A stretch of DNA of 64,000 nt, from assembly GCF_902829295.1 (NCBI RefSeq), contig NZ_CADEPL010000052.1, positions 1 to 64,000 on the forward strand. The letters are read 5' to 3'. Origin of the DNA: Vogesella oryzae. Lineage in GTDB: Bacteria; Pseudomonadota; Gammaproteobacteria; Burkholderiales; Chromobacteriaceae. Positions within the stretch are counted from its first letter, which is position 1. Every line of letters starts with the position of its first letter. Under the pieces are notes generated by a model. That model did not search any database. It worked only from the letters and a program-made list of their open reading frames with translations, and had not been told where the DNA came from. Below are positions 25,251 to 50,901 of this stretch, one piece after another. The position numbers were made by a program, and so were the translations under genes.

Positions 25251-25733
25251 CTAGCGGCCTTTTTTACGGCGGATGTACAGCGTCTTGTGCACCCGCGCCA
25301 CCACTTCGCCATCGCGGTCGGTGATGTCCACGCAGAGTTCTGGCAGGTGCTTGCTGCCGTCGGCGGTGGCGGCGCGCGCCTGTTCCAGCCACTGCGGCTC
25401 CAGCTTGAAGTGTGCGGTCACGGTGCCGCGCCCCGGCTTGAGGTAATCGATGCTGCCGGCCTTGTCCCACACGATGTAATCCTTGCCCAGGTTTTTCAGT
25501 GTCATCAGCATGAAGAACGGGTCGGTCATCGAATACAGGCTGCCGCCGTAATGCACCCCGACGTAATTGCGGTTGGTCAGCCCCAGCCGCAGGCGGACTT
25601 CCACCTGCTGCCAGTCCGCACTGATGCGGCCAACCCGGATACCGGCGCCCAGAAACGGTGGCCACAGATTGAAAATGGTTTTGGCGAGGAGTGGGTGCAT
25701 GGTGGTGTGAAACGATTGTTTGAATCGTTGCAT
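25251..25733 (-). CDS. DUF4442 (thioesterase-like hotdog) family protein
   Basis: A protein of up to 160 residues with the DUF4442 hotdog fold: NLWPPFLGAGIRVGRISADWQQVEVRL, then NYVGVHYGGSLYSMTDPFFMLM, then DKAGSIDYLKPGRGTVTAHFKL. Members are thought to act on acyl thioesters, but no reaction is assigned. ATG at 25733 or at 25700 are both possible; neither has a strong ribosome site. It is a single gene between xseA and gpmI on the same strand. Confidence 0.85.
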   Translation of the reverse strand: MQRFKQSFHTTMHPLLAKTIFNLWPPFLGAGIRVGRISADWQQVEVRLRLGLTNRNYVGVHYGGSLYSMTDPFFMLMTLKNLGKDYIVWDKAGSIDYLKPGRGTVTAHFKLEPQWLEQARAATADGSKHLPELCVDITDRDGEVVARVHKTLYIRRKKGR

Positions 25734-48878: not shown

Positions 48879-49369
48879 GCCTGCGGCCAACCCTTACCCT
48901 GGTGGCGGCGATGGCGCGCGATAACGTGATCGGTATCGACAACACCCTGCCGTGGCACCTGCCGGAAGACCTGAAACACTTCAAGGCGGTGACGCTGGGC
49001 AAGCCGGTGATCATGGGGCGCAAGACTTTCGATTCCATCGGCCGGCCGCTGCCTGGCCGCTTGAACATCGTCATTACCCGCCAGCGTGATTGGCAGCATG
49101 GAGGTGTCACCGTGGCGCACTCGCTCGAGCAGGCACTGCAGCAGGCGGGGACGGTGGAAGAGGTATGCGTGATCGGCGGCGCCAATCTTTACGCGCAGGC
49201 GTTGCCGCTGGCCGACAAGCTGTGCCTGACGCACATCGAACTGGATGTGGCCGGTGATGCCCGTTTTCCGGCCTTGGCCGCCGACGAATGGCAGTGCACA
49301 CCACAGCCCGCCCTCGTTGCGGCCAACGGTTTGCAGTACTACTTTGCCGATTATCTGCGGCGGGTATAG
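48875..49369 (+). CDS. folA: dihydrofolate reductase
   Basis: Regenerates tetrahydrofolate from the dihydrofolate made by ThyA. The 164-residue protein has [54 protein letters not shown] (substrate and NADPH site) and [14 protein letters not shown]. Its ATG overlaps the thyA stop, so the two are translationally coupled. The frame continuing upstream inside thyA is not coding. Nonamer copies lie at both ends of the gene. Confidence 0.97.
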
Positions 49370-49380
49370 CACCTTGCCTG

Positions 49381-49416
49381 CAATAAAAAAGCGGCCAATT
49401 GGCCGCTTTTTTATTG
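49381..49416. terminator. 36-nt perfect palindromic bidirectional terminator
   Basis: The stretch from 49381 to 49416 is fully self-complementary: six A's, GCGGCCAA joined to TTGGCCGC, then six T's, with ATT/AAT outside. It follows folA by 11 nt and precedes the convergent GntR stop by 10 nt, so it can end both transcripts. Its centre is a near copy of the dispersed nonamer pair. Confidence 0.92.
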
Positions 49417-49426
49417 TGCTGTGGCG

Positions 49427-50116
49427 CTAGCCGAGCAATACCGTGGCCGCTGCCTGCGCGGTCTGGCTGTACTGCACGGCAAACTCGCGCAACATCTGCT
49501 GCAGTAGCTGTGCATCGCGTGCCACGATGGCCTTGAGCAGGCGGTCGAGGAAATCGTAGGTGCGGTCGATCTGGTTCTTGCCGGCGCGCAGGATGGCGAA
49601 CAGGCAGCGCTGCGTTTGCGGCAGCAGGTCGAACAGGGTCTGCTGCAGATAACGGTTGCCGCAGTGGCGGTACAACTGCTCCAGATACTTCACGCCGGAA
49701 TGGTAGAACGCCTCGCTGTCGCTCTTGCGCTGCTGCTCGCCCAGTTCGGTCATCAGCTCGATGAAGCCGGCGAGGTCATCGTTCTGCCAGTTGGCCGCCA
49801 GATTGGCCACGGCCTGTTCCAGCAACAGGAACCACAGTGCAAACAGCTCGCGCACGTCTTCCGGGCTGATGCTGGAGACAATGGCGCCGCGACGCGGGTA
49901 GATATCTACCAGATGGCGTCGCTGCAGGATCAATAGCGCCTCGCGCACCGAGCCGCGGCTGACATCCAGTTCGGCGGCAATTCGCAATTCCTGGATGCGG
50001 GTACCCGGCGGCATGTCGCCGGTAACGATCTTGTGGCCGAGGAACTGGGAGATTTGTTCGGTAAGCGAGTCGTTGGCCTTGAAGCTCACGCGCGTCTGCT
50101 GCTGGCTGCTGTTCAT
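49427..50116 (-). CDS. GntR-family (FadR/FCD-type) transcriptional regulator
   Basis: A 229-residue regulator. The GntR winged helix is at about 15-80 (LTEQISQFLGHKIVTGDMPPGTRIQELRIAAELDVSRGSVREALLILQRRHLVDIYPRRGAIV), followed by an all-helical FCD effector domain. The ATG at 50116 (MNSSQQQ) is preferred over the upstream frame. The ligand is unknown, and no metabolic target lies next to it. Confidence 0.92.
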   Translation of the reverse strand: MNSSQQQTRVSFKANDSLTEQISQFLGHKIVTGDMPPGTRIQELRIAAELDVSRGSVREALLILQRRHLVDIYPRRGAIVSSISPEDVRELFALWFLLLEQAVANLAANWQNDDLAGFIELMTELGEQQRKSDSEAFYHSGVKYLEQLYRHCGNRYLQQTLFDLLPQTQRCLFAILRAGKNQIDRTYDFLDRLLKAIVARDAQLLQQMLREFAVQYSQTAQAAATVLLG

Positions 50117-50275
50117 GGTGCGGATACGGATTGAAGTCTGTTGATTGTCGGGCAATCGGACCGCGGATTCTAGCACTGTCGGTCTCTACGGCGGGCAATC
50201 CCGTGCTATCGGACAGGGGAAGGCAACGGTTTGTGGTGCAAATAAAACGATTGTTTGATTTGTGGTGGAAATTGC

Positions 50276-50304
50276 TTGCCTGCGGCCAACGGCAAAAGTA
50301 CTAT
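50276..50304 (+). promoter_or_regulatory. candidate promoter of the sRNA
   Basis: TTGCCT (50276-50281) and TACTAT (50299-50304) are separated by 17 nt, the optimal sigma-70 spacing; each matches the consensus at four of six positions. It points at the structured segment that ends in a terminator at 50484. One nonamer copy (50282-50290) lies inside the spacer. Confidence 0.4.
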
Positions 50305-50310
50305 TCAAAC

Positions 50311-50484
50311 GCTTGTTTAAACGAGGCCAGGCGAGGAATCAGGGGCTAACACGATAAGTGGCTCGCAAGGTTGGTTTGAACGGCTGCTTCAAGAGCAATA
50401 ACTCGGTTATTGCGTGTTCCATCAGGAACCTTGCAGGTACGACACGGGTGTTGACCTCTCCCATCACGGGGGAGGTTTTTTTTG
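50311..50484 (+). ncRNA. candidate structured small RNA
   Basis: A roughly 175-nt gene-free segment on the plus strand with a candidate promoter, three consecutive hairpins and a terminator. The hairpins are TTGAA/TTCAA (376-380 and 388-392 of 50300s), GCAATAAC/GTTATTGC (50395-50402 and 50406-50413, three-base loop) and GTTCC/GGAAC (50416-50420 and 50425-50429). The frames across it carry no recognisable protein. I know no Rfam family it matches. The start is set by the promoter guess; the end by the terminator. Confidence 0.45.
50454..50484 (+). terminator. rho-independent terminator of the candidate sRNA
   Basis: ACCTCTCCC pairs with GGGGGAGGT (one G-T wobble) around ATCAC, followed by a run of eight T's. 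No protein gene on the plus strand precedes it; the nearest one upstream, folA, has its own terminator 1 kb away. Confidence 0.85.
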
Positions 50485-50490
50485 CCCGTA

Positions 50491-50901
50491 TCAGCGACGG
50501 CCGCGTTTGTGCTCGGCGGCAATCAGATCGGAAAGCAGGATATTCAGCGCATCGGTGGACATGCGTAGCTCCAGCAGCGACATGCCCAGCGACATGATCA
50601 TCAGCAGCAGGCTGGCGCCAAAGGTGACCTGCGCTACCTGCGGCCAACCGGTGTAAATCTGCAGCATCGCCAGCACGCACATGAACAGGCTGCCCACGCC
50701 CAGACTCTGCATCCACTTGATCAGTGCAATCCGGCGGCGCAGGTTGCCGATCTGCTGCACCAGCTTTTCATCCGGAGATTGCTGGTAGTCGTCGTACAGG
50801 TTACGGATGATGCTGGCCAGTGCCAGGTAGCGGTTGGTATAGGCCAGCAACAACAGGGAGATCGCCGGGAACAGCAGCGCGGGGGTGGTGAGATTCAGCA
50901 T
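50491..50901 (-). CDS. DUF2721 family membrane protein
   Basis: A 136-residue protein with three hydrophobic segments: an N-terminal helix (LTTPALLFPAISLLLLAYTNRYLALASIIRNLYDDY, the DUF2721 start), and two helices around 68-85 and 92-112, with a positively charged hinge NLRRRIALIKWMQS. Function unknown. It starts 3 nt after the L,D-transpeptidase stop, so they are probably co-transcribed. Confidence 0.85.
   Translation of the reverse strand: MLNLTTPALLFPAISLLLLAYTNRYLALASIIRNLYDDYQQSPDEKLVQQIGNLRRRIALIKWMQSLGVGSLFMCVLAMLQIYTGWPQVAQVTFGASLLLMIMSLGMSLLELRMSTDALNILLSDLIAAEHKRGRR

Follow-up and report, generated by a model that had tools for sequence, protein, structure and literature searches.

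The window analysed here, a 64,000-nucleotide stretch of the Vogesella oryzae genome, contains a small RNA gene in the gap between a divergent GntR/FCD regulator gene and a convergent DUF2721 gene. The product of this gene is probably a non-coding sponge RNA that is repressed by PsrA, induced by fatty acids and titrates a second, C-rich sRNA. The conservation of the gene, the PsrA-type box at its promoter, a PsrA-like protein, the gene of the partner RNA and the conserved complementarity between the two RNAs were computed here, and the features of the locus are collected in Table 1. Sponge RNAs have mostly been recognised by chimera sequencing in model species; in the present case, the two partners, their sites and the signal are all proposed from sequence alone.

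Genomic context and extent of the sRNA gene

The initial annotation proposed a free-standing sRNA of about 175 nt that has a promoter and a terminator of its own. This reading is strongly supported by conservation, compensatory changes and a stable position beside the GntR gene. The gene-free gap between the GntR regulator and the DUF2721 gene, previously given as about 370 bp, measures 374 bp (50117-50490, from the GntR start codon at 50116 to the DUF2721 stop at 50491). It does contain the three hairpins described there and the terminator with its run of eight T's. The terminator scan returned three overlapping versions of one terminator, with 0.7 sites expected from shuffles, and a long U tail was observed at the 3' end of the sRNA. 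It had also been stated that no upstream plus-strand gene would need this terminator. The upstream plus-strand gene, which we take to encode DHFR, stops at 49369 and is followed by a terminator-like hairpin of its own (AAAAAAGCGGCCAATTGGCCGCTTTTTT, 49385-49414), so that its transcript needs no terminator from the sRNA. Near the start of the window, a 5S rRNA gene was identified at positions 10-122.

A genome search found the sRNA gene in a single copy in the source genome. Across genera, the sRNA stays divergent from the GntR gene while the convergent neighbour differs, being either DUF2721 or a gene that we presume to be UbiG-like or porin-like. The reading of the RNA as a leader of the downstream gene was rejected, because that gene lies on the opposite strand and differs between genera. 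On the other side of the gap, a palindrome (GATTGTCGGGCAATC, 50143-50157) is located before the GntR gene and is perhaps an autoregulatory operator; its loose form, TTGTNNGRCA, occurs in 48 of 60 upstream regions at a distance of no more than 140 nt from GntR, a count made without a control.

Table 1. Features of the sRNA locus, in window coordinates
Feature	Position	Strand	Remarks
GntR/FCD regulator, divergent neighbour	49427-50116	-	Ortholog-grade match in 60/61 family genomes
Second PsrA-like box, between GntR and the sRNA promoter	50242-50259	.	Among 13 Vogesella, matched by the search pattern only in G000 and G059
Promoter TTGCCT (50276-50281), 17 nt, TACTAT (50299-50304)	50276-50304	+	
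PsrA-type (TetR) box TTCAAACGCTTGTTTAAA	50304-50321	.	Overlaps the -10 and the presumed start point
Sponge-like sRNA	50311-50483	+	About 173 nt; start inferred from the -10, end from the terminator
Antisense arm A (GGCCAGGCGAGGA; GGCC..GCGAGGA)	50325-50337	+	Predicted to pair with UCCUCGUGUUGGCC of the C-rich sRNA
Antisense arm B (AGGGGCUAACAC)	50341-50352	+	Perfect 12-bp complement of GUGUUAGCCCCU in the C-rich sRNA
Hairpin 1 (TTGAA/TTCAA)	50376-50392	+	Partly kept in relatives; 84.6% of cells paired
Hairpin 2 (GCAATAAC/GTTATTGC)	50395-50413	+	Compensatory exchange
Hairpin 3 (GTTCC/GGAAC)	50416-50429	+	Invariant in 13 Vogesella
3' element CTTGCAGGTACGACACGGGTGTT	50430-50452	+	Near-invariant in Vogesella and g4
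Intrinsic terminator, eight T's (50476-50483)	50453-50483	+	
DUF2721 gene, convergent neighbour	50491-50901	-	Not kept as neighbour

Conservation and secondary structure

In a DNA search of 61 family genomes, the gene was found with 83-86% identity in all 12 other Vogesella genomes and in pieces in the four genomes of group g4 (Craterilacuibacter and two Crenobacter species), while the remaining matches were short. The degree of conservation greatly exceeds what chance would give. The sRNA gene is conserved in 13/13 Vogesella and 4/4 g4 genomes, and covariance model R1 was built from these 17 sequences. Among the 61 family genomes, R1 matched its 17 source genomes with E 5e-25 or better; further weak matches in the family (G043, and second matches in G032 and G054) are taken as chance. 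Against 399 genomes of the order, the model matched only Vogesella, apart from five weak matches (E 1e-4 to 0.008) that are likewise taken as chance.

Covariation was analysed on the four helices of the initial annotation in the 13 Vogesella sequences, whose rows represent few related clades. The helices are supported as a whole, with hairpin 1 partly broken and hairpin 3 uninformative. In total, 92.0% of cells were paired versus 88.4% in shuffles (0/500 as high), and slid versions of the helices paired in at most 57.7% of cells. Changes on both sides of a pair were observed in 19 cells versus 6.9 in shuffles (0/500) and in 5 pairs versus 2.8 (13/500); one of the five covariation measures, further pair types, did not exceed the shuffles (14 versus 14.1). 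Hairpin 2 is paired in 100% of cells, one A-U pair being replaced by G-C in 6 of the 13 rows, while hairpin 3 shows no variation and thus says nothing on covariation. The predicted fold of 50306-50486 is moderately better than that of shuffles (z -2.3; 7/200 fold as well), and segments of the 5' part are predicted to be able to pair internally as well, which weighs against the sponge reading.

These results also bear on whether the locus could be conserved DNA without a stable transcript, such as an operator region with a remnant terminator. The weak promoter hexamers described below would suit such a locus, but the terminator, the 5' arms and the compensatory helix changes are conserved and the flanks are not, and we consider this explanation very improbable. 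No reading frame is kept across the relatives. A coding or dual-function RNA was rejected, as the longest open frame overruns the RNA end in 11 of 13 Vogesella and the GTG frame that exists is not retained.

The family had not been recognised previously, and Rfam 15 likewise gave no match over the gathering score for the sRNA. Two sub-threshold matches (E <= 1) lie over the 3' end, namely anti-hemB (E 0.019, 19.8 bits versus a cut-off of 49.5) and, on the minus strand, Hrs1 (E 0.04, 21.9 versus 56.4 bits). Such sub-threshold Rfam matches, in the window as well as at the partner loci, are taken as chance. The anti-hemB (Burkholderia RNA 7) match spans 50418-50483 and the full 81-position model; it may only reflect the terminator or, alternatively, may hint at a role of the 3' element.

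Promoter and PsrA-type box

The sigma-70-like pair with 17-nt spacing that had been annotated is present, but it is weak: each hexamer has only four of six consensus bases, and for this reason a 9-of-12 scanner rule finds no promoter. The CTTG at the -35 region is invariant in 13/13 Vogesella. Two further features had gone unmentioned, the PsrA-type box and a 5' end antisense to another sRNA.

The box was present in 17/17 aligned sRNA homologs. The PsrA palindrome, C/GAAAC-N2-4-GTTTG/C, is found at the sRNA promoter as CAAAC-N4-GTTTA (50306-50319), its last base being A in Vogesella, not G/C, and G in Craterilacuibacter and Crenobacter. In Aquitalea, the first half of the box is AAAAC, CGAAC or GAAAC and the second half GTTTG. 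The Vogesella box resembles the PsrA footprint reported at rpoS of P. putida, TTCAAACN4GTTTGAA, and the same source describes P. putida PsrA as repressing its own promoter through a site between -18 and +20 (PMC13104628). The position of the box at the sRNA promoter suggests repression by PsrA.

Genome-wide, the box pattern (<=2 mismatches) gave 79 sites, which is fewer than the 114 of the reversed control pattern and makes the total uninformative. Fifteen near-palindromic sites were inspected. Six of them precede genes in keeping with the oxidation of fatty acids or the redox demands of that process, namely etfB (beside a divergent MaoC gene), pntA, the genes for ETF-QO and an acyl-CoA dehydrogenase, an old-yellow-enzyme/FadH-like gene and a psrA-like TetR gene. 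The other nine lie before or in other genes, including perfect boxes before a pseudouridine-synthase-like and a FabK-like gene. A weight matrix was built from the six sites, leaving out the nine and the sRNA site. It placed the sRNA box at the top of the 64-kb window with 24.7 bits, followed by 50242 (20.5), 25707 (19.7) and a next site at 10.2, a ranking that is not independent because the sRNA box supplied the pattern used to find the sites; the gene neighbours are independent. A minus-strand gene, thioesterase-like and presumably DUF4442-like, has a possible ATG at 25700, and the third-best box (25707-25724) is situated 7 nt ahead of it.

A gene for a PsrA-like protein, with a PsrA-type box before it, is present in the source genome. 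This TetR-type protein (locus L041) matches PDB 2fbq_A, which we take to be P. aeruginosa PsrA, with E 2.5e-34, and its best NCBIfam model is PsrA, with 162 bits, under the 300-bit cut-off of that model. In Ralstonia and Burkholderia, PsrA has been predicted to act on fatty-acid synthesis and FadP on degradation (PMC5343134); by analogy, this would count against a fatty-acid-degradation reading of the box.

The proposed C-rich partner sRNA

The partner was identified by searching three Vogesella genomes (G000, G059 and G058) for the reverse complement of TCAGGGGCTAACAC, which comprises arm B and its flanks, with <=2 mismatches. The totals were at control level (9, 8 and 10, respectively, versus 12, 8 and 12), and 9 of the 27 loci were inspected. 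Besides the gene itself, words common to all three genomes occurred only in one C-rich sRNA-like gene, which was matched twice, at sites 55-56 nt apart. The C-rich sRNA is about 120 nt long (L260, 1501-1621), and its predicted fold consists of SL1 and SL2, each followed by an exposed stretch (GUGGUGUUAGCCCCUC and UUCUUCCUCGUGUUGG, respectively), and a terminator. Where its surroundings were viewed, in three genomes, it is a single gene downstream of a response-regulator gene that we assume to be RegA-like.

A covariance model of the partner, R2, detected the C-rich sRNA in 57 of 61 family genomes with E 4.4e-12 or better; G044 gave only a weak match, and G009, G024 and G047 none. The words TGTTAGCCCCTCGAA and TTCTTCCTCGTGTTG are invariant in the 29 of 57 partner sequences that were aligned, and TGTTAGCCCCTCGAA and TTCTTCCTCGTGTTG[AG]CCCC were found in 57/57. 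Searching the C-rich sRNA loci against Rfam at E <= 1 returned four matches to eukaryotic families, none of them over the sRNA. The C-rich sRNA is presumably a translational repressor of many mRNAs, since its exposed C/U-rich stretches could mask Shine-Dalgarno sequences.

The leader of an SBP_bac_5 transporter gene (loci L222 and L221, minus strand, about position 1501) carries TCCGGGGCTAACAA in G000 and G059, two of the three genomes searched. This word lies about 95 nt before the ATG and shares GGGGCUAACA with arm B. As a lead only, the leader could be a target of the C-rich sRNA that the sponge imitates.

Predicted base pairing between the two RNAs

Both arms are predicted to pair with the C-rich sRNA simultaneously, with SL2 of the partner protruding between the duplexes. 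The predicted arm B duplex reaches 17 bp without a mismatch in G058, and in Aquitalea arm A would form a 15-bp duplex including two G-U pairs, as judged by eye. Because the partner was found with the window sequence, arm B pairing in G000, G058 and G059 does not count as independent evidence; arm A and the other genera do count as such for the predicted pairing. The target stretches of the partner hardly vary, so that covariation between the two RNAs cannot be shown.

A shuffle test was applied to the 60 upstream regions, of which the box pattern kept 42; it missed G039 and several Chromobacterium with variant boxes, and without G009, which has no partner match, 41 were scored. For scoring, the 45 nt that follow the box were paired with the two partner sites, and the duplex energies were summed and compared with those of 500 dinucleotide shuffles. 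Between 0 and 12 of the 500 shuffles were as good in all 33 RNA-bearing genomes, and between 15 and 417 in the eight box-only genomes that served as controls; the two sets were split by sequence motif, some genomes being placed after the counts were seen, and related genomes are not independent in these statistics.

At the level of whole RNAs, the predicted dimer was favoured over the monomers by a ddG of -18.6 to -32.6 kcal/mol in 10 of 11 chosen genomes, and shuffles as good were observed 0/60 times in eight of the 11 and 1/60 in two. The exception was a Pseudogulbenkiania genome (G041), with a dimer value of -9.9 and 13/60 shuffles as good. When 25,584 stretches of 40 nt from both strands of the window were ranked, each allowed to pair with both sites through the same 40 nt, the 5' segment of the sRNA came first (summed -53.5 versus -50.4 for the next unrelated stretch), with a small lead in the sum and with other stretches ahead for either site singly. 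A conserved base-pairing potential with another sRNA, as expected of a sponge, was thus observed, weakly in G041.

The 5' words and the 3' element may also be considered as direct regulators. The RNA would then act in trans under PsrA control, reaching mRNAs by way of its G-rich 5' words or its 3' element, and the match to the C-rich sRNA would be incidental or secondary, the two RNAs resembling ribosome-binding sequences or their complement. The G-rich words do look like Shine-Dalgarno sequences, and the near-invariant 3' element is not needed for sponging and falls outside the sponge model. However, both 5' words are kept across genera in an order and form that fit the partner, and a search for complements of the 3' element (<=3 mismatches, three genomes, loci counted without inspection) gave no matched word common to all except the gene itself. 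We regard direct regulation of mRNAs as unlikely, with a small but real chance of being correct.

Distribution in other genera

Aquitalea, the C. haemolyticum group, Gulbenkiania and one Pseudogulbenkiania MAG carry diverged versions of the sRNA, again placed before the GntR gene. These versions retain the box, and related words come after it (GGCTGACACGAGGAATGGGGCT, GGCTGACACGAGAGGGGCT, GGGCTGACCGAGGATCGAGGGGC, GGGGCCGATAACGAGGCGACACG), while the remainder of the RNA has changed; across genera, the conserved part of the predicted RNA is its 5' end, not the hairpins. In many Chromobacterium, among them C. piscinae, C. vaccinii and C. amazonense (genomes G012, G013, G017-G020, G022 and G026-G029), the upstream region has the box TTAAAACGCATGTTTT in place with no RNA motif after it, and these genomes do carry the C-rich sRNA. 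In a Laribacter MAG (L123), the GntR ortholog is divergent from a gene that is presumably SCP2-like, with the box ATCAAACACTCGTTTGAT between them.

This distribution is relevant to the roles of the two RNAs. Base pairing is symmetric, and for CrfA and SisA each RNA is described as lowering the other (PMC12559287), so the window RNA might instead be the target, with the C-rich sRNA acting as regulator or sponge, or each might simply destroy the other. Against this reversal, the C-rich sRNA is found in 57/61 genomes and recognised versions of the window RNA in 33/41 of those scored, from which the partner seems to have a job without the window RNA. Such a reversal or mutual destruction is considered improbable.

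Proposed mechanism

In the sponge model that we favour, PsrA, a repressor of the TetR type that responds to acyl-CoA or long-chain fatty acids, would occupy the box and keep the sRNA off. During growth on fatty acids, PsrA would be lifted from the -10 and start point, and the sRNA would be made. Its first 40 nt or so would present the two antisense arms in the order that clamping a single C-rich sRNA molecule requires, with arm A on UUCCUCGUGUUGGCC and arm B on GUGUUAGCCCC, targets that both flank the partner's central hairpin. This pairing would titrate or destroy the C-rich sRNA and release its mRNAs during fatty-acid catabolism. For this scheme we infer the expression of both RNAs, binding by PsrA, help from Hfq, the direction of the effect and the target mRNAs. 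Neisseria sibling sRNAs are reported to repress TCA-cycle genes (PMC5362039) and Shewanella PsrA regulons include aceBA, sdh and gltA (PMC5343134); by analogy, a sponge that relieves a TCA-type repressor during fatty-acid growth would make sense.

We further lean towards a switch common to the Chromobacteriaceae, in which PsrA, by means of a two-arm sponge, would turn off a near-invariant anti-Shine-Dalgarno hub sRNA. If so, the breakdown of fatty acids governs a conserved hub sRNA in Vogesella, Aquitalea and their relatives. In the open-licence literature searched, neither a base-pairing sponge under PsrA nor either of the two RNAs was found. The control of an sRNA by PsrA is not new in itself, having been reported earlier for RsmZ of P. 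fluorescens CHA0.

Comparison with known systems

RsmZ of P. fluorescens CHA0, reported to be a direct target of PsrA, has a reported PsrA site at its promoter and sequesters a regulator (PMC13104628, PMC3510223). It sequesters a protein, RsmA, and is reported to be activated by PsrA, whereas the window RNA has a predicted sRNA target and suggested repression; in P. fluorescens 2P24, no PsrA effect on RsmZ was reported (PMC13104628, PMC3510223). FarS of Vibrio cholerae is similarly an sRNA tied to a fatty-acid transcription factor (PMC9438474), but it derives from the 3' end of fabB under FadR, represses fadE mRNA and is not described as a sponge.

On the partner side, NmsRA/B and NgncR_162/163 of Neisseria resemble the C-rich sRNA in having three stem-loops with a UC-rich single strand between SL1 and SL2 that is able to cover the Shine-Dalgarno sequence (PMC5362039, PMC9973317, PMC13104608). 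The predicted fold of the C-rich sRNA has the same succession of SL1, UC-rich single strand, SL2 and terminator. The Neisseria RNAs are encoded by two genes between dsbB and lrp, in contrast to the single C-rich sRNA gene beside a response-regulator-like gene. Kinship beyond this layout was rejected, as the family model gave only insignificant matches, in 3/40 genomes of group g53 with E 0.24-0.68; this group is taken as Neisseria because the NrrF RNA family matches its genomes, and NmsR and Bns1 were compared by their descriptions and by genome searches. The likeness raises the question of whether these Neisseria sRNAs, too, have a sponge.

Bns1 is an sRNA divergent from a GntR-family gene (PMC4423775), the same layout as in the window, and differs in that another regulator is predicted for the window RNA. 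It is hardly to be expected that the window RNA is a Bns1-like sRNA repressed by the neighbouring GntR, as in Neisseria meningitidis. The 40 g53 genomes contain no ortholog-grade GntR, and orthology was rejected on a best E of 1.9e-14 versus 2.1e-84 or better for the 60 family matches. Among the 399 order genomes, the 11 with an R1 match include none of Neisseria's family, a search made with the model of the window RNA. It is the PsrA-type box that lies at the sRNA promoter, while the palindrome perhaps bound by GntR sits at the GntR gene instead.

For sponging itself, SroC and GcvB offer a similar case of a small RNA neutralising another that represses transport and amino-acid genes (PMC9438474, PMC9973317), with the difference that SroC is cut from an mRNA and the window RNA has its own promoter. 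The nearest proven analogue of the proposed sponge is CrfA of Caulobacter crescentus, a free-standing, nutrient-induced sRNA that inactivates the conserved SisA-D (alphaR8) sRNA family (PMC12559287). CrfA pairs with an exposed C/U-rich core of its target sRNAs, as the window RNA would with the exposed stretches of its partner. CrfA recognises a 10-nt core, UUUCCUCCCU, via one stem-loop and is under carbon-starvation control, whereas the window RNA would use two arms, with UUUCUUCCUCGUGUUG and GUGUUAGCCCCUCG of the partner, and carries a PsrA-type box.
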